Shown: positions 2,550-58,590 of the stretch, piece after piece
Numbering within the stretch: the first letter of the stretch is position 1
Layout: each line of letters opens with the position of its first letter
NCBI RefSeq assembly: GCF_003086295.3
Contig: NC_092044.1
Coordinates: 72,654,528-72,718,527 of the forward strand
Reading direction: 5' to 3'
Source of the DNA: Arachis hypogaea
Taxonomy: Eukaryota; Streptophyta; Magnoliopsida; Fabales; Fabaceae
Length of the DNA: 64,000 nucleotides
The notes under the pieces: model-generated
The model's database searches: none
What the model was told of the DNA's origin: nothing
Seen by the model: the letters and a program-made list of their open reading frames with translations, nothing else
Made by a program: the position numbers and the translations under genes

Positions 2550-3843
2550 CTAACTATAGTACCTTCTTAGGCTACAGGCATGCCATGACCTTGGCAGCTC
2601 TTGACCCTCAAGGTCGGCCACCTTGTAGTAGCCTTTTCCAAGTACCTCTACAACTCGGTAAGGTCCTTTCCAGTTGGCTGCTAGCTTCCCTTCTCTTGAT
2701 CGACCTGCTCCGATGTTATTTCGGATTAGAATAAGATGGTTGTTGGCAAAACTTTGCTGGACTACTTTCTGATTATACCATGAAGTCATTCGACATTTTA
2801 ACGCTTCCTCTCTAATCCGAGCTCTTTCTTGGACTTCTAGAAGTAGGTCGAGCTCTTTCCTTTGTATTTGGGAGTTGGCATCTTCATTTTAGAGGATCAT
2901 TCTAGGGGATCATTCTTCTATCTCTACCGGGATCATTGCCTCTACTCCATAAGTAAGTCGGAAGGGTGATTCTCCTGTTGTGGAGTGTGGAGTTATCTGA
3001 TATGCCCGTAGGACTTGTGGGAGCTCCCCAAGATCCCTTTGCATCCTGTAGTCTTCTTTTTATCCCAGCCAGTATGACTTTATTGGCAGCATCTGCCTGT
3101 CCATTGGCTTGCGGGTGTTCTACGGATGTGAATTAGTGCTTTATTTTCAAGTTAGCTACCAAATTCCTGAAACCTGTATCAGTGAACTGAACGTCATTAT
3201 CTGTGGTGATGGAGTAAGGAACCCCAAACCTTGTGATAATGTTTCTATATAGAAACTTTCGACTTCTTTGGGCGGTGGCAATAGCTAGGGGATCTGCCTC
3301 AATCCACTTTGTGAAATAGTCTACCCCTAGAATGAGGAACTTGACTTGTCACGACCCCTGGGGGAAGGGTCCAAGGAGGTTGAGCCCCCACTTTGCAAAT
3401 GGCCAGGGCGATGTTATACTGATGAGCTCTTCTGGTGGAGCGATGTGGAAGTTATCATGCTTCTGACATGGTGGGCATGTTTTGATGAACTCTGTTGCTT
3501 CTTTTCCTAAGGTCGGCCAGAAAAAACCAGCTCAGAATACCTTTTTAGAAAGAGCTCGTGCCCACAGGTGGTTGCCACACATACCACTGTGTACTTCTTC
3601 CAAGACTTCCCTTGTATTGGAGGTTGGCACACATTTTAGGAAGGGTGTTGAGATCGCTCTCCTATATAAGATGTCGCCCACTATAGTGTAGTACTCTGCC
3701 TCTCGTATTAGCCTTTTCGCCTCCTTCTTATCTGTGGGAATTATCTCTGACTTGAGGTAGTTGATTATGGGAGTCATCCATCCTTGATCCTGTCCTGATA
3801 TGGTTAAGACCTTTTCTTCCTCTGAGATCGATGGACTTTGCAA
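2550..3843 (-). pseudogene. Integrase of the Tat element, catalytically dead
   Basis: The HHCC zinc-binding region (EVHSGMCGNH, later CPPCQKH) lies at the upstream end, about 3600 down to 3465. The catalytic core and a C-terminal tail with WKGPYRVVEVLG follow at 2550-2789. The core carries damage at two of three catalytic positions. The first acidic residue reads WGLNLLGPF, so Asp has become Asn near 3380. The third reads GQADAAN, so Glu has become Asp near 3092. The second region reads TDNDVQF, with its Asp kept. At least four in-frame stops and one frameshift separate the pieces. The enzyme would normally insert the cDNA into chromosomes; this copy cannot. Confidence 0.88.
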
Positions 3844-19244: not shown

Positions 19245-20927
19245 CAACACCAAACTTAAATCTTGCTTGTCCTCAAGCAAGTAGTAGAACATAAAGAGAA
19301 TAAATGAGAATACAAGAGATACAAGTCCTTGTTCAGAGAATTCAAAACCTTGGTTCATGAAGTTTCATGCATAGAAATTTAGGTTCATGTTCTTGCTGGT
19401 TTCTAGGATATAACATGCTCTTGAATACTCACTCTATTGCCTTCTATGAGACCTTTATTCTTTGATCCTTATCTTAACTTTGTTTTTGTTTTCTTTCTCT
19501 ATAGAGCTTATTGCTTTCTTTAGATAAGTGCTCTCTTTCTTTATGATAAGCTTTCAGCCAACACTCCCGAACCAGTTGGTTCAAGGTGCTAGGTGTTAAA
19601 ACACTCTTAAGGACTTACTCACTCAAGCCTCTCTTCAGCACATACACACCACAGGCACATGGTTTGTTATTCATTCCTGAGACCTTGTTGTCCAGCACCT
19701 CTTTGGGTTACTAAATGTTTTGTGACAAGGTTGCTCTTGATAGTGGACTTTCAGTTGATAATCCCGGGTTAGTTAACCCAAGTTATCAAGTGATGAAGCA
19801 CTCCTCAGAACCTAATCATCCTAGCATATTCTTGCATAAAAATGCCACAGACATATGCCTCAGGGTTCAAACTATTGGTGCCTTGCTTTATTGCTTGCTC
19901 TTTTCTTTCTTTGTCATTCTCTTTTTCTTTCTAGGATCTTCTTAATTATCCAAGTCTCATAGAATGCACCTTAAGTTCATAAGTCAAGAGATATCTTAGC
20001 CTTGTGCCTTATTGATGAACCAACTTAGCTAGCAAATACCACCACAAACACTAAGACTTTATTCTACAACATTGGACTTCACTCTTCTTTTTCACAACAT
20101 TTTCTTTCATTTTCTTTTGTTGAACTCAAGAACACAGCATATGATTCAAGAATTGGTGCAGTAGCCTAAAAATCTAAGCTAGCAAGCCAAAGATAAACTA
20201 GAACTAAATGCAAATGACTTAAAGATTAAAGGGACATTGATTAATAGCAATACAAGTGCACTTTCAATTGACATCTTTAATTCAGAAACGGTCAAGAAGC
20301 AATACAACCTCTTGGTGCCCTCTTGTTTCTCTCCTTGTCATCATCTTCCTTGGTTTTTGTTTCTTTTTCTTGTCTCTCTAGATGATGGTGCATATTCCTT
20401 CCAAGAGATGAACTGACTGCTTGCAAAGATATTGAAAGTTTCTTGTTCCCTAAGCACTTGAGAGATGGTTAGCATGCATGTATGTTTGTGAGCTTCTAAA
20501 CTCACTTTGGTGTGTGAACATTAAACTTAATTCTTTGCTTAGTTTTGTGTGCAATGAATTATATGCATGCAACGCAACATCACGTGCTTTTATTTTTCCA
20601 AAACAAAGATAAAACTGGAAGAAAAATGCAAAGTCAAGTGACTTCTATGATTGTTTGGAGTTAGTGATTAATCATGCTACTGAGGATCATCATGTGGTTA
20701 ATTGAAATTTATGGTAGAACACCAAACTTAGTATCACACATTCACTCTTAAGTTGTTGACTCATGAACTAATCACCTTGGTGTGCAACACTAAACTTAAC
20801 TCCTTGCAATACAGGGAAATCTACTTAACTCTTTTATTGAAACAGATAAGAAAAGAGAGTTACCTCTGGTTAGGTTGCCTCCCAACAAGAGCTTCTTTAA
20901 CATCATTAGCTTGACAGTAGTTGTTTG
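19245..20927 (-). other. 3' untranslated region of element C
   Basis: No convincing coding region is present. On the minus strand it carries the post-pol motif TTGTTGGGAGGCAACC (about 20869-20889) 40 bases after the coding stop, several AAGTTTGGTG-like words (near 20520, 20705 and 20790), and a perfect stem-loop 18 bases before the 3' LTR. Two-strand low-complexity T-rich tracts near 19460-19560 explain spurious small ORFs. Confidence 0.6.
19262..19281 (-). promoter_or_regulatory. Stem-loop at the 3' LTR border of element C
   Basis: CTTGCTTG-AGGA-CAAGCAAG (minus strand) is a perfect 8-bp stem with a 4-nt purine loop. It is followed by ATTT and AAGTTTGGTGTTG, which abuts the LTR terminus at 19244. 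The same composite with compensating base changes borders the 3' LTRs of elements E and H. It occupies the place of a polypurine tract. Confidence 0.7.
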
Positions 20928-34910: not shown

Positions 34911-37287
34911 ATTGAGGCTGAAGGTTGACACTCAAATTCTGGGCTACATTTAGCATGAAAGTAGAGCCAAGAAGAGGAAAAGCAAGTTGTTGGCAACAAC
35001 TTGGGCTAGCAACGCCCAAGTCTCATACTTCACTACCAGGAAAATGTCTTGCACGTTGCCAACGTGCATTTGGCCTGGAGTTAGTGCCAATAACGCCAAG
35101 CCAATGGGCCAGAAACATGATGAATGAACTCTTCCATTCCAAGTCTAGCAACACTTCCAATTGAGCCAAGAATTCAACAATGAGAAAGCCCACATTGCTA
35201 ACCCAAATTGAAGGTCTCTGAAGAGTTTTAGGAGTAGTATAAATAGAAGAGATTGATGTACTTGTAGGGGACTTTTGGACTTTTGAATATTTTTTTTAAC
35301 ACTTAGAATTTTTAGCACTTTTACTTAGCTTATTGTTAGAACTTCCGGGTATTCTCCCGGAAAGCTCATCTTTGGTTTTCTATTGGAATTTTTCTTCTTC
35401 ATCTTCAAGTTTTAAGCACTTCATTCTTCTTCTTCTTCTTCCTTTCCACTTAGTTTAATTTTTGTTAATGGCATTTGTTGTTGAGATTGGAGCTATGATT
35501 CACTAAACCCCACTTTCATTAGGGGGAGGAGCTCTGTTGGTTGGAATGAATTGGTGAACCCATCTTCTCTTTCTCAATTTTAGTGGTTGATCTAAAGAGG
35601 GAACTCTTGTTCTTCAAAGATTCAACCACCATCGAGAGAGGGGTTAATCTATATGAATTATGTGGTGAATTTGATGAATGAGCCACATAATTCAGTTTAG
35701 AGTTCATCCTCTCATGATTTCCTCAATCAATATACCTTGGTTAGTATGTGAGATGTAACTCTCCTTGGTTAAGATTTTGGAAATTGTGTGGCTGGATTAA
35801 AATTGATCTTCATCTCTTCTCATGAACAATTAGATCACGAGAGTGGCAATTGGCTATGTTAAGAGAGATTGAATCACCAAGAGATTGGGATTCAATCACC
35901 CATTTGCCATGGATCTATACCCATGATTGAGGAAGATTTGACTAACATCAATTCATGAAAACTAACATCTCTGATCCCTAATGATCCTCTCTATCATTAA
36001 TTCTTATTTCTTTTACTTCTAGTTGTTTGATTACCCATAACCCAATTCCCTTTTACATTCTGTCAATTTATTATTCTTGTCATCTACATTTTGTTCTCTC
36101 AATTCTTGCTATTTACTCTTATGTTCTTTAAATTTCTGCACCCTTTAGTTCCTTGCCATTTATCTTTGATGTTATTTAAGTTTCTTGCAATTTAAGTTTC
36201 AGTTATTTACTTCCATTTTATTTCTATATTCTTGTTCTTAATTGCCATTTAAATTCCTGTAATTATGTTCAAAAGTCACATTGCTCATAAAATCAAAGAT
36301 CATGTTCGCTTGACTAAGTTTACCATTTAACTAAAGTTGCTTAATCTACCAATCCTCGTGGGATCGACCTCACTCTTAGTGAGTCTTACTACTTGATACG
36401 ACCCGGTATACTTGCCGGTTGTACGTGAAATCAAATTTTTACGTATCAAAGAACCCATGTAGAAAATAGGTCATACACTCGTTCCACCCGGTTTCATTAG
36501 ATTGAAGAACAAAAATACATCTTAGAATGGAATCAAACATAGATTAAAATAGGAATAGTAATATTATTAATCCATGAGAATTGGCAGAGCTCCTAACCTT
36601 AACCTAGGAGGTTTAGTTGCTTATGATTTACAGAGAACAATGGTTAATTCAAAAATATGGCAAAAGTCTAGAACAAGGGTGATCCTTATTCTATATATAC
36701 TAATCTAGTAAATAGAGATTATAGAAATAAGATAGATTAGACTCTTGGCATGAAAATCCACTTCTTGGGCCCACTTGGTAGGTGTTTAGGCTGATCTTTG
36801 AGTGAATCCACGTGTTGAGACTTCCCTTGGGGCGTTGGACACCAGCCTTGCTCCCTTTTGGGCGTTTAACTCTAGATAGGGGGGTAAGATGGGCGTTCAA
36901 CACCCATTTTGGACCATCATTTCCAGAGTAAGTTATGGATTATTATATATTGCTAGAAAGCCCTTGAAGTTACTTTCCAATGCCGTTGATAATGCCCTAT
37001 TTGGACCTCTGTAGCTCCAGATATGCTCGTTTGAATGCATGGAGGTCAGAATCTGACAGCATCTACAATCCTTTCTAAACCTCTGAATCAGACTTCTCCA
37101 GAAATTGCCAGAATCACCCATAAATCACTTAAAATTATAGAAAACCCACAAAAGCTCAAAGTACCATCCAAAAAGTGATTTTTGCATTAAAACCTAATAA
37201 AACTTAACTAAACATACTGAAAACAATGAGAAAATGCTACTAAAAGGTGTATAAAATATCCGCTCATCAGAACACTAAACTTAAACT

Positions 37288-37307
37288 GTTGCTTGTCCCC
37301 AAGCAAC
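37288..37307 (-). promoter_or_regulatory. Stem-loop at the 3' LTR border of element E
   Basis: The minus-strand GTTGCTTG-GGGA-CAAGCAAC is a perfect 8-bp stem. It is followed by AGTTT and AAGTTTAGTGTTC, directly at the LTR terminus at 37269. It is equivalent to the stem-loops of elements C and H. Confidence 0.7.
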
Positions 37308-38957
37308 CAAAAACAAAAGAGGATAAAGAAGAGCATATTACAATGACTCTTAGAGCTCTCAATGAAGCTTAGATCTACTTATTTGGATGGGACAATTAGC
37401 TTCTTGATTTCTGAATAGGTTTGGCATCTCACTTTTCTTTGAAGGTCAGAAATATTGGCATCTCTTGGAATTAGAATTCGGATGATATTATTGATTCTCC
37501 TAGTTGAGTTTTTCTTGATTCTTGACCCACAGCTTCTTTTGGTGCTTTTCACCTTTGAGCATAGCTGTGACCCTAACCATTTCGTTTTCCAGTATTACCA
37601 CCGGATACATAAACGCCACAGGCACTTAACTGGGTAAACCCAATTGGATTGTAATTTAGCTTTGCTAGAATTCCTAGACAGTGGTACCCAGGGTTCTTAG
37701 GCATACTCTTTTCTTTCTTTTGCTTTGGTTCACAACTTTAACCGCTCAGTCTCAAGTTTTTCACTTGACACCTTCACGCCACAAGCATATAGTCAAGGAA
37801 AGTAGTTCATTTGAACTTTTAGGCCTTTTTATTGTGATGCCCTTCTAACCATTGATGCTCAAAGCCTTGGATCCGAGCTCTCCTTTTCCATCATTTTGAG
37901 CTTTATTGGATTTTTCTCTTGCTTTTTCTTTTGGTTGTTCTTTTTATTATCTCTCTTTGTTTTTGCCTTTTTCTGCTGTCTCTTTTTCACTAAGAATCAA
38001 TTGTTTTTTATTTTTTAGAGAATAAATAATACTTCTCTAAATCCACTATTCTTCAAGAGCCAATACACTTAACTTCACTATCAAATATGCACAGTTAATT
38101 CATACATTCAGAAAATCAATGCAAAGCCACCACATCAAAATAATTAGAATATAGTCATGATGTACTCGAAAATCATGCAATCACCACTTCTTAAAAAAAT
38201 TTTCTTTTAAATTTGGTAAGGGATACATCAGATATCTTATAACCATGAAGTACTTGAAAATAAACAACTAAAGCAGAATCCTAAGAGAGATCATGCAAAA
38301 GCTAGAATGGAAATCAGAATAAAAATGGAATGAAATACTGAAAAACAGAAAGAAAAGGGGGAATGAAACTTAACCACCTTAGTACTGATGGTTGCTCAGG
38401 CTGTGCTTCTGTGAAGATGATTCAGCTTCCCCTTGTGCCATTGATGATAATAAAAACCTAGAGCTCGCTCTGCAACACCAAACTTAAAAAGTATGCTTGT
38501 CCTCAAGCAAAGAAAACTAAAAACATAAGGTAAGAGTGTTAGAAAGGGATGAAGAATTCTGGCGTTTCAACGCCAAAAATGGGCGTTGAACGCCCAAAGG
38601 GGACCAAAAATTGGTCCAGAGTTCCTCCTGAATGGGCGTTAGACGCCCCAGTTGCTCCTATTCTGACGTTCAACGCCAGTAAGTACTCAATGCCCAGCTT
38701 CCTCCTTATCTAGCATTCAACGCCAGCAAGGGGCTCTCCTCAAGGTGTTTTGTTTTCCATCTCAAGCATTTCTGTCTCTATTCTAAGTGCTGCACATGAT
38801 CAGAAACTTTTAAAAAGCAAGTGAAAAACTATGAAAATAAACTAAAATGAACTCAATTGAAAAGAACAAAAGAAAGAGAAACAAAATTACTCTACTCATG
38901 GTTAGGTTGCCTCCCAACAAGTACTTCTTTAATGTCTTGAGCTGGACTTTACTGTAC
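37308..38957 (-). other. 3' region of element E between integrase and 3' LTR
   Basis: No ORF resembling the third ORF of element H remains. On the minus strand it holds the post-pol motif (38901-38920, TTGTTGGGAGGCAACC) about 40 bases after the integrase end. It also has a group of GGCGTT.AACGCC palindromes (38557-38735) and a second, shorter stem-loop TGCTTG-AGGA-CAAGCA (38494-38509) followed by AAGTTTGGTGTTGC. Confidence 0.65.
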
Positions 38958-39388: not shown

Positions 39389-39393
39389 CTTTC

Positions 39394-40915
39394 TGATGAG
39401 CGGATAATTTATACGCTTTTTGGCATTGTTTTTAGTATGTTTTTAGTATATTTTAATTAGTTTTTAGTATACTTTTAGTAGTTTTTAGTTAAAATTCACT
39501 TTTCTAGATTTTACTATGAGTTTGTGTGTTTTTCTGTGATTTCAGGTATTTTCTGGCTGAAATTGAGGGTCCTGAGCAAAAATCTGATTCAGAGGCTAAA
39601 AAGGACTGCAGATGCTGTTGGATTCTGACCTCCCTGCACTCGAAGTGGATTTTCTGGAGCTACAGAAGTCCAATTGGCGCGCTCTCAACGGCGTTGGAAA
39701 GTAGACATTCTGGGCTTTCCAGCAATGTATAATAGTCCATACTTTGCCCGAGATTTGATGGCCCAAACTGGCGTTGCAAATCAGCTTCAGAATTCCCAGC
39801 GTTTAACGCTGGAACAGGCATAAAAATTGGAGTTAAACGCCCAAACTGGCATAAAAGCTGGCGTTTAACTCCAGAAAAAGTCTCTACACATGAAAGCTTC
39901 AATGTTCAACCCAAGCACACACTAAGTGGACCCAGAAGTGGATTTTTACGTTATTTACTCATTTCTGTATACCCTAGGTTACTAGTTCACTATTAATAGG
40001 ATCTTTTGACATTGTATCTGTACCTCATGACACTTTACACGTTTATTTGTGTACCTTCCACGGCATGAGTCTCTAAACCCCATGGTTGGGGGTGAGGAGC
40101 TCTGCTGTGTTTTGATGGATTAAGGCAATTACTACTGTTTTTCATTCAATCATGCTTGCTTCCATTCTAAGATATTACTTGTTCTTAAACCGGATGAATG
40201 TGATGATCCGTGACACTCATCATCATTCTCAACTATGAACGTGTGCCTGACAACCACCTCCGTTCTACCCTAGATTAAGTAGATATCTCTTGGATTCTTT
40301 AATCAGAATCTTCGTGGTATAAGCTAGAACTGATGGCGGCATTCAAGAGAATCCGGAAGGTCTAAACCTTGTCTGTGGTATTCTGAGTAGGATTCAATGA
40401 TTGAATGACTGTGACGAGCTTCAAACTCCTGAGGGCTGGGCGTTAATGACAGACGCAAAAGAATCACTGGATTCTATTCCAACCTGATTGAGAACCGACA
40501 GATGGATAGCCGTGCCGTGACAGGGTGCGTTGAACATTTCCACTGAGAGGATGGGAGGTAGCCACTGACAACGGTGAAACCCTTGCATACAGCTTGCCAT
40601 GGAAGGAGCCTTGCGTGCTTGAAGAAGAAGACAGTAGGAAAGCAGAGATTCAGAAGATGGAGCATCTCCAAAACCTCAACCTGTTCCCCATTACTGCAAA
40701 ACAAGTACTTATTTCATGTTCTTTTACTTTTCACAATCAATCTTGATAATTATTGATATCCTGACTAAGATTTACAAGATAACCATAGCTTGCTTCAAGC
40801 CGACAATCTCCGTGGGATCGACCCTTACTCGCGTAAGGTATTACTTGGACAACCCAGTGCACTTGCTGGTTAGTTGTGCGGGGTTGCAAAAGTGTGATTG
40901 CAATTTCGTGCACCA
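39394..40915 (+). mobile_element. 5' LTR of element H
   Basis: The LTR runs from TGATGAGCGG to CGTGCACCA. It contains the GGAAAG...CTTTCC module (39653-39745), GGCGTTTAACTCC-type words (39780-39875) and the terminal hairpin CCTTAC-TCGC-GTAAGG (40823-40838). The LTR should hold the promoter and polyadenylation signals; I could not place a TATA box with confidence, though TATAATAGTCC near 39728 and TATTAATAGG near 39990 are candidates. Confidence 0.93.
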
Positions 40916-40921
40916 AGTTTT

Positions 40922-40940
40922 TGGCGCCGTTGCCGGGGAT
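40922..40940 (+). other. PBS of element H, tRNA-Asp
   Basis: TGGCGCCGTTGCCGGGGAT is an exact 19-nt match to the complement of the 3' end of plant tRNA-Asp(GUC), six bases after the LTR. This is the primer of Athila-type elements. Confidence 0.92.
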
Positions 40941-40942
40941 TG

Positions 40943-41400
40943 TTCGAGTTTGGACAACTGACGGCTTATCTTGTTGCTTAGATTAGGACTGTTTTATTTT
41001 TGTTGGTTTAGAGTCATTTAGTTGTGTCTAGTTTCATATTTTAAGTTTGGTGTCAATTGCATGCTTTTGCTTTTCTTTTAATTTTCGAAAATTAGTGTTT
41101 GATTTTCTAAAAATTTTAAGTTTGGTGTCATTTTGTTGTTTTTCTCTTTCATCTTTTCAAAAATCAAATCTATTTCAAAATAATTTTTCAATCATATCTT
41201 TTTAGTTGCTGATTTCAAAATCTTTTTAATTGACTAATTGATTCAGTTTTCAATTTGCTTTGATCTTATTTTCTTTTAATTTTCGAAATTTTATTTTATT
41301 TTCCATTTATTTTATTTTATTTTATTATTTTCGGTCAAATATATATATATATATATATATACTTTGCTTGTGAATTCATATCATATTCCCTTTTTCCATC
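40943..41400 (+). other. 5' leader of element H
   Basis: This T-rich untranslated leader of about 460 bases has two copies of TTAAGTTTGGTGTC (41041 and 41117) and a (TA)n run at about 41339-41360. The gag ATG at 41401 follows TTTTTCCATC. Confidence 0.75.
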
Positions 41401-42171
41401 ATGGACCTAAGTGGAATTGAGCAGTCCAGAAGGACTCTGGGGTCATATGCTAACCCCATTACAGCTGCATATGGGAGTAGCATCTGTACACCTCCCATCA
41501 AAGCAAGCTGCTTTGAGCTAAATCCTCAACTCATTATCATAGTGCAGCAAAATTGCCAGTATTCCGGTCTTCCACAGGAAGAGCCTACTGAGTTTCTGGC
41601 ACAGTTCTTACAAATTGCTGACACAGTACGTGATAAAGAGGTGGATCAGGATGTCTACAGACTATTAATGTTTCCATTTGCTATAAAAGATCAAGCTAAG
41701 AGGTGGTTGAATAACCAACCTACAGCAAGCATAAAGACATGGAAACAGTTATCAAACAAATTCCTGAATCACTTCTACCCTCCAAAGAGGATGACACAGC
41801 TAAGGCTGGACATCCAAGGCTTTAAACAAGAGGATAATGAATCCCTTTATAATGCCTGGGAGAGGTATAGAGATATGCTAAGAAAATGCCCCTCTGAAAT
41901 GTTTTCAGAGTGGGTGCAGTTAGACATCTTCTACTATGGGCTTACAGAAAAAGCTCAGATGTCCTTAGATCACTCAGCCGGTGGATCTATACATATGAGG
42001 AAGACGATTGAAGAGGCTCAAGAGCTTATAGATACTGTTGCTAGAAATCAATATTTGTACTCTAGCAATGAGTTCTCTCCAAAAGAGGAAGTCATGGCAG
42101 TAGCCACTGATCCTAATCCTCAAGAACAGATGATTGAGCTTAATCAACAATTACACCTGATGACAAAATAG
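41401..42171 (+). pseudogene. gag: gag of element H
   Basis: The capsid-type retrotransposon gag domain spans about residues 40-215 (FELNPQLIIIVQQN, DQDVYRLLMFPFAIKDQAKRW, TWKQLSNKFLNHFYPP, FSEWVQLDIFYYGLT, LDHSAGGSIHMRKT). It assembles virus-like particles around the RNA. The frame is interrupted by TAG at 42169 and continues in the same frame from 42172. The stop could be a decayed Gln codon or a gag/pol boundary stop. Two decayed relatives here, C and F, do not show a stop at a clearly equivalent place, which favours decay. The ATG at 41401 is the first in frame after the leader. Confidence 0.88.
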
Positions 42172-44352
42172 TTAGCAGAATTTAAAGAGATGCTCCATGA
42201 AACTAAAATTGCTAACAAGAACATAGAACTGCAGTTAAATCAAGCAAAACAGCAGATATTTAAACAAATAACAGAAGAATGTCAAGCAGTTCAGCTGAGG
42301 AGTGGGAAGACATTAAATGGCACTGCTCAAAGTAGCAAAAAGCCGAATAAGGAACAATTGACAGAGGATAACCAAACCACTGTCCAAAATCCCTCTGAGG
42401 ACAGTAAGAGCCCGGAGAGGAGTACTTTTGGCGCTCAAACGCCAGAAAGGGGAGGAAAGCTGGCGTTAAACGCCCATTCCCTGCCCAGTTCTGGCGTTCA
42501 AACGCCAGAAAAGGGAGAGAAGTTGGCGTTAAACGCCCAATCTTCACCCATTCCTGGCGTTCAGACGTCAAGGGAAGATCAGACACCTGAGAGTGCTGAC
42601 AGTAATCCCTCTAAAAAGGCTTCTCCAACCACTTTTGTAAGGAATAAACCTGCAGCAACTAAGGTTGAAGAATATAAAGCCAAAATGCCTTATCCTCAGA
42701 AACTCCGCCAAGCGGAACAGGATAAGCAATTTGCCCGCTTTGCAGACTACCTAAGGACTCTTGAAATAAAGATTCCGTTTGCAGAGGCACTTGAGCAAAT
42801 ACCTTCTTATGCTAAGTTCATGAAAGAGATCTTAAGTCATAAGAAGGATTGGAGAGAAACTGAAAAAGTATTTCTCACTGAAGAATGCAGTGCAGTCATT
42901 CTAAAGAGCTTACCAGAAAAGCTTCAAGATCCAGAAAGCTTTATGATACCATGCACATTAGAAGGTGCTTGCACCAAGATAGCCCTATGTGATCTTGGAG
43001 CAAGCATCAATCTAATACCTGCATCCACTATCAGAAAGCTTGGGTTGACTAAAGAAGTCAAACCAACCCCGATATGCCTCCAACTTGCTGATGGCTCCAT
43101 TAAACATCCATCAGGCATAATAGAGGACATGATTGTCAAGGTTGGGCCATTCGCCTTTCCAACTGACTTTGTGGTGCTGGAAATGGAGGAGCACAAGAGT
43201 GCAACTCTCATTCTAGGAAGACCTTTCCTAGCAACTGGACGAACTCTCATTGATGTACAAAAAGGGGAAGTAACCCTGAGAGTCAATGAGGATGAGTTCA
43301 AGTTGAATGCTGTAAAAGCTATGCAGCATCCAGACACACCTAATGACTGCATGGGTGCTGACATTATTGACTCTTTGGTGGAAGAGATCAATATGACTGA
43401 GAGTCTAGAATCAGAGCTTGAGGACATCTTCAAGGATGCTCAGCCTGATCAAGAAGAAACAGAAGAAATAAAGGAATTTTCGAAAATTCCTCAGGAGGAG
43501 GATAAGCCTCCCAAACCTGAACTCAAACCACTACCACCATCCCCAAAGTATGCATTTCTGGGAGAGGGTGATACTTTTCCAGTGATTATAAGCTCTGCTT
43601 TAAATCCACAGGAAGAGGAAGCACTGATTCAAGTGCTAAGGACACACAAGACAGCTCTTGGGTGGTCCATAAGTGATCTTAAGGGCATTAGCCCAGCTAG
43701 ATGCATGCACAAGATCCTGTTGGAGGATAATGCCAAACCAGTGGTCCAACCACAGAGGAGGCTAAATCCAGCCATGAAGGAGGTGGTGCAGAAAGAGGTC
43801 ACTAAATTACTAGAGGCTGGGATTATTTATCCTATTTCTGATAGCCCCTGGGTGAGCCCTGTCCAAGTTGTCCCCAAAAAGGGAGGCATGACAGTGGTTC
43901 ATAATGAAAAAAATGAACTGGTTCCTACAACAGTCACAGGGTGGCGTATGTGCATTGACTACAGAAGGCTCAATACAGCCACCAGAAAGGATCATTTTCC
44001 TTTACCATTCATAGACCAAATGCTAGAAAGACTAGCTGGTCATGATTATTACTGCTTTTTGGATGGATATTCAGGTTACAACCAAATTGCAGTAGATCCT
44101 CAGGACCAAGAGAAAACAGCATTTACTTGCCCTTCTGGCGTGTTTGCCTACAGGAGGATGCCTTTTGGTCTGTGTAATGCTCCTGCAACCTTTCAGAGAT
44201 GCATGCTATCCATCTTCTCTGATATGGTGGAGAAATTCCTGGAAGTCTTCATGGATGACTTCTCAGTATATGGAGACTCATTCAGCTCCTGTCTTAACCA
44301 CCTAGCACTTGTCCTGAAAAGGTGCCAAGAGACTAACCTGGTTTTAAACTAG
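42172..44352 (+). pseudogene. pol: Gag linker, protease and reverse transcriptase of element H
   Basis: Numbered from Met at 42190, a low-complexity linker with the repeated words TPE.G.KLALNA lies at about residues 75-125, encoded by palindromic GGCGTTAAACGCC DNA. A basic region follows (MPYPQKLRQAEQDKQFARF). The protease active site CDLGASINLIPAS has its Asp at residue 268, with IILGRPFLATGRTLIDV-type sequence (LILGRPFLATGRTLID) downstream. The RT follows: WRMCIDYRRLN, FLDGYSGYNQI, YRRMPFGLCNAPATF and catalytic FMDD at 687-690 (YVDD in most relatives). All key residues are present. A TAG at 44350 replaces the Trp codon usual in the NLVLNWEKCHF-type motif. Confidence 0.9.
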
Positions 44353-45036: not shown

Positions 45037-46404
45037 ATAGAACCAGTAGTTGGGGCGTCCCTCCCTTCTACTGAGATTTCTGAGACTTTCCCAGATGAGC
45101 AACTCTTTGCCATCCAGGAAGCTCCATGGTTTGCAGATATTGCAAATTATAAAGCTGTGAGGTTCATACCACAGGAGTACAGCAGAGTGCAAAGAAAGAA
45201 ATTAATTTCAGATGCCAAGTACTACCTATGGGATGAGCCATATCTCTTTAAGAGATGTGCAGACGGAATGATCCGCAGATGTGTACCCAGAGAAGAAGCA
45301 CAGAGGATCTTATGGCATTGCCATGGATCACAGTATGGGGGACATTTTGGAAGTGAGCGAACAGCCACTAAGGTCCTCCAATGTGGGTTCTACTGGCCTA
45401 CTCTCTATAGAGATGCCCGAGAGTTTGTGCGTAACTGTGACAGCTGCCAAAGAGCTGGTAACTTACCTCATGGATACGCCATGCCTCAACAAGGGATCTT
45501 AGAGATTGAGTTGTTTGATGTATGGGGAATTGACTTTATGGGTCCATTCCCACCATCATACTCAAACACTTACATTCTGGTGGCAGTGGACTATGTATCT
45601 AAGTGGGTAGAAGCAATTGCCACACCCACTAATGATACTAAGACCGTGCTGAAATTCCTCCAGAAACACATCTTCAGCAGATTTGGTGTTCCCAGAGTCA
45701 TAATCAGTGATGGGGGCACTCATTTCTGCAATAAACAGCTGTACTCTGCTATGGTCCGATATGGAATTAGCCACAAAGTGGCTACCCCGTATCATCCACA
45801 GACAAATGGGCAAGCTGAAGTCTCTAACAGAGAGCTAAAAAGAATCCTAGAATGGACTGTGATGGCCCGAAGAAAGGATTGGGCAAGGAGCTTGGATGAT
45901 GCTCTGTGGGCATACAGAACAGCATTTAAGACCCCAATAGGAACCTCACCATACCAACTTGTGTATGGCAAGGCCTGTCATTTGCTCGAGGAACTGGAAC
46001 ATAAAGCCTACTGGGCAACCAGATTCCTAAACCTGGATGCTAAGTTAGCTGGTGAAAAGAGATTACTCCAGCTAAATGAGCTAGATGAATTTAGACTCAG
46101 TGCTTTTGAAAATGCAAAGATTTATAAGGAAAAGGCAAAGAAGTGGCATGACAAGAAGTTGTCATCCAGAGTCTTTGAGCCAGGACAAAAAGTTCTGCTC
46201 TTCAACTCTAGGCTCAGATTGTTCCCAGGAAAACTTAAATCCCGGTGGAGGGGTCTGTATGTGATTACAGGAGTGTCACCATATGGATATGTTGAGCTTC
46301 AGGATATTGATTCTGACAAAAAGTTCATTGTTAATGGACAGAGGATCAAGCATTATCTTGAAGGCAATCTTGAGCAGGAATGCTCAAAACTGAGGCTAGA
46401 ATGA
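45037..46404 (+). pseudogene. pol: Integrase of element H
   Basis: It is still in the gag-pol frame. Numbered from Met at 45157, HHCC zinc ligands are H56, H63, C94 and C97. The catalytic triad is D126 (GIDFMGPF), D185 (IISDGGTHF) and E221 (NGQAEVSN), with exactly 35 residues between the last two. The C-terminal domain has [21 protein letters not shown] and ends [11 protein letters not shown]. All catalytic residues are kept, so this is a potentially functional domain in a polyprotein broken upstream. The stop codon is TGA at 46402. Confidence 0.92.
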
Positions 46405-46567: not shown

Positions 46568-46835
46568 TACTGGCGAAAAAACGCCAGTAAGGGGCATTTT
46601 GGGCGTTAAACGCCAGAATGGGGACCATTCTGGGCGTTTAACGCCAGTAAGGGTGCCATTTTGGGCGTTAAACGCCAGAATGGGCACCATTCTGGGCGTT
46701 TAACGCCAGGTGTGCAGCATCCTGGGCGTTTAGCAAAACGCCCAGTGACAAAGGGAATTCTGGCGTTTAACGCCAGCCAGGGCACCTGGCTGGGCGTTAA
46801 ACGCCCACAATGGCTAGCAATTGGGCGTTAAACGC
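46568..46835 (+). repeat. Array of GGCGTTTAACGCC palindromes in element H
   Basis: About nine palindromes occur in 270 bases, spaced roughly 25-35 bases apart: GGGCGTTAAACGCCAG, TGGGCGTTTAACGCCAG, TGGGCGTTAAACGCCCA and variants. Each can form a stem of 6-8 bp. Spacers are similar (for example AATGGG.ACCATTCTGGG), so the array is a degenerate minisatellite. Confidence 0.88.
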
Positions 46836-47172
46836 CAGAAAGGTGGGGGACTGAGATTTTGCTTTCCAATCAATTTTTTTCAAATTTTCCTTTTTTTTTT
46901 TGACCCATACTTTTCTACATAAACACATTTCAACCTTTCATCATTCATCTTCAAATCTTCAAAAATTAAAATCATTCTTCAAATCTCTCTCAAATCCTTC
47001 CCAAATCTTATTCAAAAACTCACCCTTCTCTCAATTTCTTTCCATATCTTCTCAAATCTCCTTCCAAATTTTCGAAATCTCTCCTTCCCCCCCTTAGAAA
47101 AACACGTTCAGCTTCCCTTTTCCCCCACACCATTCGAATTTGCTCTTCTCCTCTCTCTCTTCTTTCCTTTCT
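46836..47172 (+). other. Leader of the third ORF of element H
   Basis: This pyrimidine-rich (T and C) untranslated stretch includes a poly-T run at 46890-46901. It lacks a recognisable gene; the short open frame at 46900-47097 has Ser/Phe/His low complexity. Confidence 0.5.
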
Positions 47173-47192
47173 TTTGCTTGAGGACAAGCAAA
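47173..47192 (+). promoter_or_regulatory. Internal stem-loop of element H upstream of the third ORF
   Basis: TTTGCTTG-AGGA-CAAGCAAA forms a perfect 8-bp stem. It is followed five bases later by AAGTTTGGTGTGC. It repeats the composite at the 3' LTR border (50789-50826) and lies 54 bases before the ATG at 47247. Confidence 0.7.
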
Positions 47193-47246
47193 CCTCTAAG
47201 TTTGGTGTGCTTTTCCGTGATCACTAAGCCAAGATTCATCAAGATC

Positions 47247-48359
47247 ATGGCTCCTAAGGGAAAACAAACCAATTTAAGAGGAAAGAAAGAGAATAATCCA
47301 AAGAATCTTTGGAATCAAGAGAAGTTCTTAACCAAAGAACATGAAGACCATTATCACAAAATAATGGGTCTGAGGTCAGTGATCCCGAAAGTTAAATTTG
47401 ATCTGAAAGAAGATGAATATCCGGGGATCCAAGAGCAAATTCGAAACAGAGGATGGGAAGTTCTAACCAATCCTGAGATAAAGGTTGGAAGAAATATGGT
47501 TCAGGAATTCTACTCAAATCTGTAGCTAACAGATAAGCAGAGAATGATTGGAACTGCTTTCCATACTTACAGAACCATGGTCAGAGGGAAAGTTATCTAC
47601 TTTCATCTGGACAAAATAAGAGAAATCTTCAAATTGCCTCAACTGCAAGATGATCCTGAATCCTTTAATAGGAGAATGGTGAGAGCAGATAAAAGGTTGG
47701 ATCAAGTTCTAGAGGACATATGCCTCCCTGGAACTAAGTGGATAACCAATTCAAAGGGTATCCCAAACCAACTCAAGAGGGGAGACCTCAAACCAATTGC
47801 AAGAGGTTGGCTAGACTTTATTGGGCATTTCATATTGCCCACTAGCAACCGTTCTGAGGTCACTATCAAGAGAGCAGTGATGATTCATTGCATTATGCTT
47901 GGAAAAGAAGTGGAGGTTCATCATCTGATTTCTTGTGAGATCTACACAATTGCAAATAAGAATTCCACTGAAGCTAAACTGGCTTACCCAAGCTTGATCT
48001 CCTTGCTCTGTAAAGAGGCTGGGGTAAAGATGGGAGTAGATGAATTCATACCCATTGAACATCCAATCACCAAGAAGTCAATGGAAGGACAAATGCAAGA
48101 CAACTCTATCAAGAGGAAGGCGCAGGAATTCCTCCCTGAATTCCCTAAAATTGACTACTGGACCAGCCTAGAAGCATCTATCACCAAGTTACAAGAAACT
48201 ATGGAGCAACTGAAGGAAGAACAGCAGAATCAGAACTGCATGCTCTGCAAATTGCTGAAGGAACAAGGAAAGCAGGGGCGTGAACTCCAAGAGTTGAAAC
48301 ACCAAAAGCTCTCCTCTCAAGTTGAGGGAGCATCCACTTCTCAAAATCAAGGTTGTTGA
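47247..48359 (+). pseudogene. Third ORF of element H (plant-transposon-protein-like)
   Basis: ATG at 47247 (MAPKGKQTNLRGKK) opens a frame of 370 codons, broken once by TAG at 47523 and continuing in frame to TGA at 48357. The N-terminus is strongly basic. The middle (GLRSVIPKVKF, VLTNPEIKVGRNMVQEFY, then LPGTKWITNSKGIPNQL and GWLDFIGHFILPTSNRSEVT) resembles the domain I know as 'putative plant transposon protein'. The last ~90 residues form a likely coiled coil (EASITKLQETMEQLKEEQQN). Athila elements carry an extra ORF after pol, often called env-like. No signal peptide or membrane segment is visible here, so an envelope role is not supported. Function unknown. Confidence 0.72.
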
Positions 48360-48860
48360 GTCCTAACTCTGTGATAACCTCTATCATTAGGAGCCTATTT
48401 AAATTTTTGTTTTCTATTCCTACTAGTCTTATCTTATATCTATTTTTGAGTCTTGTTCTTAATTCATAATTAATAAAATTTAAAATTCATGTCTTAAAGC
48501 TATGAATGTCCTATGAATCCATCACCTCTCTTAAATGAAAAATGCTTTAATCACAAAAGAACAAGAAGTACAGGATTTCGAATTTATCCTTGAAACTAGT
48601 TGAATTAGTTTGATGTGGTGACAATACTTTTTGTTTTCCGAATGAATGCTTGAACAGTGCATATGTCTTTTGAATTTGTTGTTTTGAGAATGTTAAAATT
48701 GTTGGCTCTTGAAAGAATGAGGGAAAAAGAGAACTGTTATTGAGGATCTGAAAAATCATCAGATTGATTCTTGAAGCAAGAAAAAGCAGTGATTCAAAAA
48801 AAAAAACGAAAAAAAAGAGAGAAGAAATATAAAAAAAAAGAAAGAAATAAAGTTGTGACC
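48360..48860 (+). other. 3' region of element H up to solo LTR K
   Basis: This non-coding sequence has an A-rich tract at 48787-48852. It ends with TGACC, one copy of the target duplication of LTR K. Element sequence continues at 50386. Confidence 0.6.
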
Positions 48861-50385
48861 TGGTGCACGAATTTGTAATCCGTACAACTAACCAGCAAGT
48901 GCACTGGGTCGTCCAAGTAATACCTTACGTGAGTAAGGGTCGATCCCACGGAGATTATTGGTTTGAAGCAATCTATGTTTATTTTATTATTCTTAGTCAG
49001 GATATTAATTAAAGTTATCAGTTGGAATTATTAGATTGGAAAAATAAAAGAGAATAATAGCGTTACTTGTTGTGCAGTAATGAGAAATATGTTGGAGTTT
49101 TGGAGATGCTTTGTCCTCTGACTTCAACTCTTCCTTGAAATCCTTCTCCACACGCAAAGTCCCTTCCATGGCAAGCTCTATGTAGGGTGTCACCGTTGTC
49201 AATGGCTACTTCCCATCCTCTCAGTGAAAATGTTCCTATGCTCTGTCACAGCACGGCTAATCATCTGTCGGTTCTCAATCAGGTTGGAATAGAATCCATT
49301 GATTCTTTTGCGTCTGTCACTAACGCCCAGCCTTCAGGAGTTTGAAGCTCGTCACAGCCATTCAATCCCAGAATCCTACTCGGAATACCACAGACAAGGT
49401 TTAGACTTTCTGGATCCTCATGAATGCCGCCATCAATCCGGCTTATACCACGAAGATTCTGATTAAGGAATCTAAGAGATACTCATTCAATCTGATGTAG
49501 AATGGAGGTGGTTGTCAGGCACACGTTCATGGATTGAGAAAGGTGATGAGTGTCACGGATCATCACCTTCTCCATAATTAAGCGCGAATGAACATCTTAG
49601 ATAAGAACAAGCGTGTTTGAATGGAAAACAAATGAATTGTATTAAATCATCGAGAAGCCGCAGAGCTCCTCACCCCCAACAATGGAGTTTAGAGACTCAT
49701 GCCGTCAAAAAGTATGTAATTCAGATCTGAAAATGTCATGAGGTACAAGATAAGTCTCTAAAAGTTGTTTAAATAGTAAACTAGTAACCTAGGTTTACAG
49801 AAAATGAGTAAACTAAGATAATTGGTGCAGAAATCCACTTCTGGGGCCCACTTGGTGTGTGCTGGGGCTGGAACTAAAGCTATCCACGAGTTGAGGCCTT
49901 TCTTGGAGTTGAACTCCAAGTTATAACGTGTTTTGGGCGTTCAACTCCGGATTATGACGTTTTTCTGGCGTTTAACTCCAGACAGCAGCATGTACTTGGC
50001 GTTCAACGCCAAGTTACGTCGTCTTTCTTCGCGCAAAATATGGACTATTATATATTGCTGGAAAGCCCTGGATGTCTACTTTCCAACGCCGTTGAGAGCG
50101 CGCCAATGGGACTCCTATAGCTCCAGAAAATTCATTTCGAGTGAAGGGAGGTCAGGATCCAACAGCATCAGTAGTCCTTTTTCAGCCTAACTCAGATTTT
50201 TGCTCAGCTCCCTCAATTTCAGCCAGAAAATACCTAAAATCACAGAAAAACACACAAACTCATAGTAAAGTCCAGAAATATGATTTTTGCCTAAAAACTA
50301 ATATTATTCTACTAAAAACTAATTAAAACATGCTAAAATCTACATGAAATTACCCCCAAAAAGCGTATAAAATATCCGCTCATCA
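48861..50385 (-). mobile_element. Solo LTR K, TGATGAGCGG family, antisense to element H
   Basis: The complete 1525-bp LTR (TGGTGCACG at 48861 to CCGCTCATCA at 50385) is flanked by the perfect duplication TGACC (48856-48860 and 50386-50390). It carries the family hairpin CCTTAC-GTGA-GTAAGG near 48923 and the GGAAAG...CTTTCC module at about 50045-50130. It lies opposite in orientation to H's own 3' LTR, only 441 bp away. Confidence 0.94.
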
Positions 50386-50390
50386 TGACC

Positions 50391-50788
50391 CAAGGCAAAA
50401 AGAGTGTGCTTAAGAACCCTGGACACCTCTAATTGGGGACTCTAGCAAAGTTGGGTCCTAATCTGAAAAGGTTCACCCAAGTATGTGTCTGTGGCATGTA
50501 TGTATCCGGTGGTAATACTGGATGACAAAGTGCTTTGGGCCACAGCCAAGACTCATGGCATAGCTATGTTCAAGAATCATTATACTTAACTAGGAGAATC
50601 AATAACATTATCTGAGTTCTGAGTTCCTATAGATGCCAATCATTCTGAACTTCAAAGGATAAAGTGAGGTGCCAAAACTGTTCGGAAGCAAAAAGCTACT
50701 AGTCCCGCTCATCTAATTGGAGCTGAGTTTCCTTGATATTTTGGAGTCTATAGTATATTCTCTTCTTTTTATCCTATTTTGATTTTTA
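50391..50788 (+). other. 3' untranslated region of element H after LTR K
   Basis: No coding region is seen. It resembles, in opposite orientation, parts of the 3' region of element E near 37480-37800 (for example a TACATACATGCC-like and a GTGGTAATACTGG-like segment). Confidence 0.5.
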
Positions 50789-50826
50789 GTTGCTTGGGGA
50801 CAAGCAACAATTTAAGTTTGGTGTTG
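50789..50826 (+). promoter_or_regulatory. Stem-loop and border signal at the 3' LTR of element H
   Basis: GTTGCTTG-GGGA-CAAGCAAC forms a perfect 8-bp stem. It is followed by AATTT and AAGTTTGGTGTTG, which abuts the LTR terminus at 50827. No classical polypurine tract is present; the only purine-rich run is the loop GGGGA plus flanking bases. By position this composite should serve plus-strand DNA priming. Confidence 0.72.
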
Positions 50827-52348
50827 TGATGAGCGGATAATTTATACGCTTTTTGGCATTGTTTTTAGTATGTTTTTAGTATATTTTAATTAGTTTTTAG
50901 TATACTTTTAGTAGTTTTTAGTTAAAATTCACTTTTCTGGACTTTACTATGAGTTTGTGTGTTTTTCTGTGATTTCAGGTATTTTCTGGCTGAAATTGAG
51001 GGTCCTGAGCAAAAATCTAATTCAGAGGCTAAAAAGGACTGCAGATGCTGTTGGATTCTGACCTCCCTGCACTCGAAGTGAATTTTCTGGAGCTACAGAA
51101 GCTCAATTGGCGCGCTCTCAATGGCGTTGGAAACTAGACATCCTGGGGTTTCCAGCAATGTATAATAGTCCATACTTTGCCCGAGATTTGATGGCCCAAA
51201 CCGGCGTTGCAAATCAGCTTCAGAATTCCCAGCGTTTAACGCTGGAACTGGCATAAAAATTGGAGTTAAACGCCCAAACTCGCATAAAAGCTGGCGTTTA
51301 ACTCCAGAAAAAGTCTCTACACATGAAAGCTTCAATGCTCAGCCCAAGCACACACTAAGTGGACCCAGAAGTGGATTTTTACGTCATTTACTCATTTCTG
51401 TATACCCTAGGTTACTAGTTCACTATTAATAGGATCTTTTGACATTGTATCTGTACCTCATGACACTTTACACGTTTATTTGTGTACCTTCCACGGCATG
51501 AGTCTCTAAACCCCATGGTTGGGGTTGAGGAGCTCTGCTGTGTTTTGATGGATTAAGGCAATTACTACTGTTTTTCATTCAATCATGCTTGCTTCCATTC
51601 TAAGATATTACTTGTTCTTAAACCGGATGAATGTGATGATCCGTGACACTCATCATCATTCTCAACTATGAACGTGTGCCTGACAACCATCTCCGTTCTA
51701 CCCTAGATTAAGTAGATATCTCTTGGATTCTTTAATCAGAATCTTCGTGGTATAAGCTAGAACTGATGGCGGAATTCAAGAGAATCCGGAAGGTCTAAAC
51801 CTTGTCTGTGGTATTCTGAGTAGGATTCAATGATTGAATGACTGTGACGAGCTTCAAACTCCTGAGGGCTGGGCGTTAGTGACAGACGCAAAAGAATCAC
51901 TGGATTCTATTCCAATCTGATTGAGAACCGACAGATGGATAGCCGTGCCGTGACAGGGTGCGTTGAACATTTCCACTGAGAGGATGGGAGGTAGCCACTG
52001 ACAACGGTGAAACCCTTGCATACAGCTTGCCATGGAAGGAGCCTTGCGTGCTTGAAGAAGAAGACAGTAGAAAAGCAGAGATTCAGAAGATGGAGCATCT
52101 CCAAAACCTCAACCTGTTCCCCATTACTGCAAAACAAGTACTTATTTCATGTTCTTTTACTTTTCACAATCAATCTTGATAATTATTGATATCCTGACTA
52201 AGATTTACAAGATAACCATAGCTTGCTTCAAGCCGACAATCTCCGTGGGATCGACCCTTACTCGCGTAAGGTATTACTTGGACGACCCAGTGCACTTGCT
52301 GGTTAGTTGTGCGGGGTTGCAAAAGTGTGATTGCAATTTCGTGCACCA
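50827..52348 (+). mobile_element. 3' LTR of element H
   Basis: Its length equals that of the 5' LTR (1522 bp), with about 23 substitutions and no indels noticed by eye. It ends CGTGCACCA at 52348, followed by the CTTTC target copy and the integrase codons of element E. Confidence 0.93.
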
Positions 52349-57375: not shown

Positions 57376-58590
57376 CAGGAACAAGGAAAAAAGGTATTCT
57401 TGTTGAAGCTGATCCTGAACCTGAAAGGAGACTGAAGAGGAAACTAAGAGAATCTAAATTACAACAATCTAGAGACAACCTTACTGAAATTTTCGAACAA
57501 GAAAAGGATATGGCAGCCGAACCCAGCAACAACAATGCAAAGAGGATGCTTGGTGATTATACTACACCTACTTCCAAGTTTGATGGAAGAAGCATCTCAA
57601 TTCCTGCCATTGGAGCAAACAATTTTGAGCTGAAACCTCAACTAGTTGCTCTAATGCAACAAAACTGCAAGTTTCATGGACTTCCATCAGAAGATCCCTA
57701 CTAGTTTTTAACTGAGTTCTTGCAGATCTGTGAGACTGTTAAGACTAATGGAGTAGATCCTGAAGTCTACAGGCTCATGCTTTTCCCTTTTGCTGTAAGA
57801 GACAGAGCTAGAACATGGTTGGACTTACAACCTAAAGATAGCCTGGACTCTTGGGATAAGCTGGTCACGGCCTTCTTGGTTAAATTCTTTCCTCCTTAAA
57901 AGCTGAGCAAACTTAGAGTGGATGTTCAGACCTTCAAGCAAAAAGATGGTGAATCCCTCTATGAAGCTTGGGAAAGATACAAGCAGATGACCAAAAAGTG
58001 TCCTTCTGACATATTTTCAGAATGGACCATGATAGATATATTCTATTATGGTCTGTCTGAGTTCTCTAAGATGTCACTGGACCACTCTGCAGGTGGATCC
58101 ATTCACCTAAAGAAAATGCCTACAGAAGCTCAGGAACTTATTGAAATGGTTGCAAATAACCAATTCATGTACACTTCTGAGAGGAATTTCGTGAATAATG
58201 GGATGCCTCAGAGGAAGGGAGTTCTTGAAATTGATGCTCTGAATGCCATATTGGCTCAGAACAAAATGTTGACTCAGCAAGTCAACATGATTTCTCAAAG
58301 TCTGAATGGATGGCAAAATGCATCCAACAGTACTAAAGAGGCATCTTCTGAAGAAAAAGCTTATGATCTTGAAAACCCTGCAATGGCAAAGGTAAATTAC
58401 ATGGGTGAACCTTATGGAAACACCTATAATTCTTCATGGAGAAATCATCTAAATTTCTCATGAAAAGATCAACAAAAGCCTCAACAAGGCTTTAATAATG
58501 GTGGAAGAAACAGGTTTAGCAATGGCAAGCCTTTTCCATCATCTTCTCAGCAACAGATAGAGAATTCTGATAGACTTGCAAGAAAAAAGC
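57376..58590 (+). pseudogene. gag: gag of element F (Athila-like), truncated
   Basis: The frame opens at about 57376 with a basic region (EPERRLKRKLRESKLQQSR). It includes Met at 57510 and the gag domain (NNFELKPQLVALMQQN, DPEVYRLMLFPFAVRDRARTW, YEAWERYKQMTKKCPSD, LDHSAGGSIHLKK). Three stops in the same frame break it: TAG at 57702, TAA at 57897 and TGA at 58461. All three can be explained by single C-to-T or G-to-A changes. After about 58590 the sequence switches to element G; protease and pol are absent. Confidence 0.87.

Follow-up and report, generated by a model that had tools for sequence, protein, structure and literature searches.

How a plant retroelement of the Ty3-gypsy type fixes the exact start of its plus strand, when the tract beside its 3′ long terminal repeat (LTR) has drifted so far that a purine tract alone hardly explains it, is the question raised by a 64,000-nucleotide stretch of Arachis hypogaea DNA (contig NC_092044.1, positions 72,654,528 to 72,718,527, forward strand; hereafter the window). 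In this window, elements H, E and C carry, directly before the 3′ LTR, a composite of a hairpin with an 8-bp stem, a short spacer and a conserved word, and H and E have a further copy inside the element, which in H lies ahead of the third open reading frame (ORF3). We tentatively read the composite, at somewhat less than an even chance, as a module by which an Athila-type lineage primes its plus strand; in it, the hairpin would define the primer end and the word would be a drifted polypurine tract (PPT). The composites in the window are as follows.

50789–50808, plus strand: 3′ border hairpin of H, GTTGCTTG-GGGA-CAAGCAAC; the stem was found and is part of the predicted fold.
50814–50826, plus strand: border word of H, AAGTTTGGTGTTG, at the PPT position and abutting the 3′ LTR (from the sequence and the LTR ends).
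47173–47192, plus strand: internal hairpin of H, TTTGCTTG-AGGA-CAAGCAAA, in the predicted minimum-energy fold.
47198–47210, plus strand: internal word of H, AAGTTTGGTGTGC, 5 nt past the hairpin and before ORF3 (from the sequence).
37270–37307, minus strand: 3′ border composite of E, whose word reads AAGTTTAGTGTTC (from the sequence).
38476–38511, minus strand: internal composite of E, with a decayed hairpin (from pairing and fold).
19245–19281, minus strand: 3′ border composite of C, with a C-G outer pair and a spacer of 4 nt (from stem pairing).

At the border of H, the hairpin (50789–50808) is followed by the spacer AATTT, by AAGTTTGGTGTTG up to 50826 and by the LTR from 50827. The coordinates and stems given in a preliminary description of this DNA proved correct for the H border, for the H internal copy (47173–47192) and for C, where the hairpin lies at 19281–19262 with the stem as described. 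Two of its readings had to be corrected: the E border word, given as AAGTTTGGTGTTG, reads AAGTTTAGTGTTC, and the H internal copy, said to continue with GTGTTG, reads GTGTGC. The second copy that it placed inside the elements is intact in H, but the one in E, although present, has one broken pair and lies outside the predicted minimum-energy fold. A search of the window with the hairpin pattern (at most 3 mismatches) returned 10 matches, corresponding to five sites on both strands, against 1.35 expected, and none of 100 shuffled windows reached this number. Likewise, the decamer word AAGTTTGGTG with at most 1 mismatch gave 17 matches against 7.3 expected, a number reached in 0/100 shuffles.

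To see how regularly the hairpin accompanies LTR edges, we turned to the whole genome, where a 16-mer comprising the word and the LTR start occurs 66,293 times and its reversed control 12 times. The first 60 of 100 listed places, all on contig C1, were examined; 56 of them were LTR edges and 4 belonged to a 33-nt tandem array of the word. The hairpin was present at 55 of the 56 edges, the remaining one (L068) being rearranged. At L068, the 5′ arm is replaced by an apparent LTR end, that is, by a recombination junction. With 14 further borders, found in the window and in 24 pieces of 10 kb, 70 borders were available, and 67 of these keep at least 7 of the 8 stem pairs, so the composite is near-universal in the sampled borders; its absence from most intact family members had been named beforehand as one of the findings that would refute a selected structure. 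In the three exceptions, L020 and L034 (4 and 3 pairs left, respectively) and L068, the 5′ arm has decayed or been replaced. The LTR edge was checked by the LTR ends in H and judged elsewhere from the TGAT start of the LTR; several types of LTR start occur, TGATGAG being the commonest (43/55). The distance from the 3′ arm of the hairpin to the LTR is nearly constant, namely 18 nt in 63 and 17 nt in 6 of the 69 anchored borders. Among 43 H-like borders, the mean majority frequency was 0.97 and 0.99 in the arms versus 0.74 and 0.89 in the upstream flank, which was not realigned for indels. The 25 nt preceding the border hairpins are pyrimidine-rich (76%, 55 copies).

The same hairpin was met in another plant sequence, L004, which is contig LFMX01000071 from the assembly of Candidatus Burkholderia humilis, presumably the leaf symbiont of a Psychotria. 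The contig is apparently host plant DNA, and the presence of a plant retroelement in it is probably due to contamination or chimeric assembly. It reads TTTGCTTG-AGGA-CAAGCAAA, GTCTC, AAGTTTGGGGGAG, an LTR-like stretch and, at 3668, the core of a primer binding site (PBS) as in H; the hairpin-LTR distance is 19 nt, with the LTR start inferred from TG, and AAGTTTGG occurs once in the 8 kb examined. Purines account for 10/13 positions of AAGTTTGGGGGAG versus 7/13 of the peanut word AAGTTTGGTGTTG. Because L004 has the same hairpin before the purine-rich AAGTTTGGGGGAG, the word in peanut has the appearance of a PPT that has drifted; it probably took on its peanut form when the hairpin was already present, as judged from one sequence of one other plant. 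The word had been proposed to replace the PPT; it does occupy the PPT position, abutting the 3′ LTR in H as a classical PPT does, but descent from such a tract appears to describe it better than replacement. The module could help to annotate LTR borders, given the 66,293 genomic occurrences of the word with the LTR start and a hairpin shared with a distant plant. Between about 2095 and 8000, L004 shows one LTR-like stretch between the 3′ end of the element and the PBS, that is, a tandem or circle-like junction. The pattern scan of bacterial genomes that yielded L004, which was judged real, gave one other locus, L003, judged to be chance. When viral contigs were scanned for the pattern, 2 and 9 stretches came up, none of them supporting: L001 and L002 lie inside a phage-like ORF, and none of L005–L013 has the hairpin in its 5′ flank. 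An integrase search of viral contigs confirmed 0 of 11 stretches.

Is the stem kept as a stem? The anchored set comprised 91 sites, namely 69 borders and 22 others (21 peanut internal copies and the L004 border); anchoring counts sites whose 3′ arm starts in one of eight listed ways, so that internal copies that have lost this arm would be missed. The outer pair is G-C in 57 borders, C-G in 5, T-A in 1, G.T in 2 and unpaired in 4, and in the other 22 sites it is T-A in 16, C-G in 1 and unpaired in 5. Pair 7 is T-A in 69/69 borders; at the other 22 sites it is C-G (16), T-A (5) or T.G (1). Pair 5 is A-T once, in L024, whose stem CTTGATTG/CAATCAAG clearly differs from the others. Stem-preserving changes on both sides were thus found at pairs 1, 5 and 7. 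Pairing between internal and border copies was considered and rejected: in the CTCG/CGAG family it would bring a mismatch and a wobble, and therefore the stems change within copies.

Shuffling was applied to 23 distinct ungapped hairpins and ignores kinship; of the 26 distinct hairpins, 3 have 3-nt loops and were excluded because the aligner misplaced the gap, and one of these contributes an extra both-side change at pair 5. The results showed 87.5% paired cells against 82.9% in shuffles (0/500), 12 cells with a both-side change against 5.8 (0/500) and a covariation score of 0.178 against 0.100 (0/500). No excess was seen among these hairpins in how many pairs show a both-side change (2 versus 2.0, 427/500) or in how many further pair types occur (7 versus 7.4, 429/500). 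An earlier set of 35/36 composites (L068 having no anchor), also with 23 distinct hairpins, had 164/184 cells paired versus 152.6 (standard deviation 2.5) under whole-arm shuffling, a value reached in 0/20,000 shuffles. By sequence comparison, a paired stem is well supported. The selection on structure that had been claimed for it receives modest support: pairing, both-side cells and covariation score exceed the shuffles, but the counts of pairs and pair types do not. Genome-wide, pair 7 with intact neighbours was counted in three forms, C-G (13,122), C.A (671) and T.G (683), and controls gave 0; the near-equal single variants suggest decay of inserted copies.

How the hairpin would define the primer end can be sketched from its distance to the LTR, and the steps of pausing, cutting and priming are those that we infer. 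During minus-strand copying, reverse transcriptase would pass the LTR edge and the word and reach the stem 17–19 nt later, where the stem would make it pause. With the RNase H trailing the polymerase site by about 18 bp, the word/LTR junction would then lie beneath it, and a cut there would leave the plus-strand primer. For the enzyme of human immunodeficiency virus 1, RNase H cutting about 18 bp from the polymerase site is described in passages of PMC5766924. A stem at a nearly constant 17–19 nt would be a simple physical answer to the question of the plus-strand start, and it makes a quantitative prediction: if the stem moves, the cut moves.

Several points weigh against the priming module. 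The word is not purine-rich as a classical PPT would be (7/13 purines in AAGTTTGGTGTTG). The 18 nt is a retroviral value that may not be the spacing of the plant element's enzyme, and several cuts around the 18-bp register are reported in the same passages (PMC5766924). Folding-energy z values of −0.9 to −2.4, in 7 of 8 composites forming the hairpin, are unremarkable. The loop size, 3 or 4, was picked for each copy to maximise pairing, and independent compensating events are few, 4 or 5 by our estimate. The sampled copies come mostly from few families, and their abundance may reflect recent amplification. Since 671 C.A sites are about as many as 683 T.G sites, there is no indication that the selected form is RNA rather than DNA, and a wobble preference was rejected as proof of RNA on these numbers. 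In addition, the spacing between hairpin and word in internal copies is looser, at 6, 5 and 4 nt in 15, 5 and 1 of 21 cases, so the RNase H ruler does not explain these copies.

What the internal copies do is therefore a question of its own. For 12 hand-picked TGATGAG borders, 1 kb was read at −2350 to −1350; an internal copy was present in 10, with perfect 8-bp stems in 7 and 7 pairs in 3, and none was seen in the stretch read of L108 and L110. The motif TATAWAW lies 102–154 nt upstream of 17/21 internal copies (9/11 in a first sample, 8/10 in a second), mostly of one family; within 70–240 nt upstream it was found for 9/11 internal copies, 0/14 borders and 9.9% of 5,000 random windows. Between the TATA box and the ATG there is a pyrimidine-rich leader and then the composite, and 9 of 10 internal copies inspected have the ATG 34–39 nt past the decamer. 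ORF3 may thus have its own internal promoter. The likely ORF3 transcript would have the internal copy in its leader, and this copy may act as a leader element or as another priming site. The hairpin itself had been suggested as the signal for a subgenomic ORF3 transcript; that role appears to pass to the TATA box, which is the likelier source of ORF3 RNA, and a TATA box before ORF3 is a concrete prediction for the expression of the extra gene. For comparison, passages of PMC2829016 mention predicted splice acceptors in Athila and, for Sireviruses, an internal promoter that was hypothesised and not identified.

These observations give some weight to the explanation that survives best beside the priming module, namely that the internal composite acts in the leader of the ORF3 mRNA (in translation, packaging or stability), that this signal is present again in the 3′ region as the border copy, and that the word alone primes. 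We regard it as doubtful, yet a serious possibility. The distribution of the TATA box and the position of the ATG agree with it, as do the copies of the word that H has in its gag leader and those in similar stretches elsewhere. Relatives of ORF3 also lie on short ENA contigs, which may be transcripts; one of them, P0001 (contig of at most 1,957 bp), encodes 370 aa with 94% identity over the query, and its N-terminal residues are those read from the H ORF3 ATG at 47247. Many of the named matches of ORF3 are Arachis hypogaea proteins. However, the more tightly spaced border copies at the LTR edge indicate reverse transcription, the TATA box is absent from the internal copies of H, E, L106 and L109, and the ORF3 transcript is itself a predicted one.

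Rather improbable, in our view, is an inverted repeat acting at the DNA level, as a site for a protein (integrase or a host factor) on double- or single-stranded cDNA. Such a site would account for inner stem letters that are near-invariant at the borders beyond the needs of pairing (for each of pairs 2–8, a single pair type in 65–69 of 69) and for single variants without wobble preference, but the compensating changes at three positions and the deviating L024 stem fit pairing better. Finally, it is very unlikely that the internal copy is without function, a remnant of a former 3′ end downstream of which the ORF3 module was later added: the copy does resemble a border composite, lies just ahead of ORF3, is decayed in E and is missing from 2 of the 12 stretches, but 10/12 elements retain it, pair 7 is C-G 13,122 times, with about 5% of that number for either single variant (which recent amplification could also explain), and the internal copies differ from border copies in their loops and outer pairs and are thus not recent duplicates of them.

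The assignment of H to the Athila lineage rests on the following features.

39394–40915, plus strand: 5′ LTR of H, TG...CA, 1522 bp (identity to the 3′ LTR, target site duplication).
50827–52348, plus strand: 3′ LTR of H (same ends, target site duplication).
40922–40940, plus strand: PBS TGGCGCCGTTGCCGGGGAT, 6 nt past the 5′ LTR (from the sequence).
41401–42171, plus strand: gag ORF (PF03732, E 3e-18).
42190–44352, plus strand: protease/reverse transcriptase ORF, N-terminal part (PF13650, PF00078).
45157–46404, plus strand: integrase ORF (PF00665, PF17921).
47247–48359, plus strand: ORF3, interrupted in this copy by an in-frame stop; the listed open part is 47544–48359.

The LTR pair (39391–40915 versus 50824–52348) is 98.4% identical, with LTR ends TG...CA and the duplication CTTTC on either side. 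A few nt past its LTR, H has a PBS of the TGGCGCCGTTGCCGGGG type, which we take to match tRNA-Asp, and after the integrase an extra ORF of the PF20167 type (47544–48356, E 6.3e-34), a domain that we take to mark the ORF3 of Athila. The families studied here are presumably the FIDEL and Feral elements of Arachis. The tRNA-Asp assignment of this PBS type is also supported by passages of PMC1142308, where Diaspora and Calypso likewise have the PBS a few nt after the LTR.

With the Athila/Calypso lineage of plant Ty3-gypsy elements (Athila4, Calypso, Diaspora), H shares gag-pol and the extra ORF, although Diaspora differs in having no extra ORF. The words 'hairpin' and 'stem' are absent from the Diaspora text (PMC1142308). 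An extra internal PPT has already been published: the linkers of Athila4 and Calypso contain one, as cited in a passage of PMC2829016. Passages of the same source (PMC2829016) describe multiple PPTs in Sireviruses, which are Ty1-copia elements, together with repeated motifs and with an inverted repeat where the PPT meets the LTR. The peanut elements resemble them in several identical PPT words, in a structure at the PPT/3′ LTR junction and in repeated motifs in the LTRs and upstream of the extra gene. However, as far as these passages go, Sireviruses have the right arm within the 3′ LTR and the PPT next to the loop, and their upstream PPTs have no hairpin, whereas the peanut internal copy has one; in peanut, both arms are upstream of the word. 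The latter arrangement and the second, internal hairpin set the peanut elements apart from Sireviruses. No report of this hairpin was found in a literature search covering titles, abstracts and passages, and a text search for the sequence words returned only papers that were unrelated by their titles.

A broader version of the priming module, which we consider unlikely, has it used twice, as a ruler at the LTR edge and as a central priming site in a TATA-driven ORF3 unit, in convergence with foamy viruses, and takes the AAGTTTGGTGT words in leaders and linkers as extra, mostly hairpin-less sites. Foamy viruses have an internal promoter, and to our knowledge no such hairpin. They have an internal priming tract (PMC5294762), as is proposed for the peanut elements; the sequences are unrelated, and the function is shown there and inferred here.

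The word indeed extends beyond the composites. Exact copies of AAGTTTGGTG without a hairpin lie at 41043, 41118, 56068, 56261 and 20720, including the following.

41043–41052, plus strand: AAGTTTGGTG in the 5′ leader of H, hairpin absent (from the sequence).
41118–41127, plus strand: AAGTTTGGTG in the 5′ leader of H, hairpin absent (from the sequence).
20720–20797, minus strand: two word copies in C, AAGTTTGGTGTTC and AAGTTTAGTGTTG, upstream of the 3′ border and without a border-type hairpin.

In a 264-kb sample (the window, the next 100 kb on C9 and 100 kb on C1), AAGTTTGGTG has 68 copies versus 0.6 expected from base composition alone and ranks tenth among 10-mers on both strands. The sites are gag leaders (twice in H), linkers, 33-nt arrays and the two hairpin sites, mostly without a hairpin. 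A nearby complement of at least 6 bases accompanies 25/28 copies outside leaders and hairpins versus 20% in shuffled flanks, these copies being mostly from few homologous families; the figures are 4/21 for gag-leader-type copies, 1/11 for internal hairpins and 0/14 for borders. In L023 (minus strand, 6884) and L035 (minus strand, 4613), the linker word forms an arm of a perfect hairpin, TTTGGTGT-3 nt-ACACCAAA. At L016 (9537–9612) and similar loci, three word copies with a 33-nt period are in frame and give SKFGV repeats; as read by eye, the array lies near the end of a gag-protease ORF apparently without a reverse transcriptase downstream. Pairing of the word with a tRNA was rejected, since the L004 word does not fit.

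Elsewhere in the window, the hairpin matches no Rfam family at gathering score, and the sole match of the scan is snoR71 (57909–58017, minus strand, 41.4 bits, gathering 40). A probable solo LTR, seen as an LTR-like stretch, separates ORF3 from the 3′ border of H (48884–50385, minus strand). Palindromes of the GGCGTTTAACGCC type form an array at 46602–46836 upstream of ORF3 and occur singly at 42462, 42525, 38582 and 49998. The motif accounts for the four top 10-mer entries of the 264-kb sample, and its arrangement resembles the repeated motif boxes of Sireviruses.

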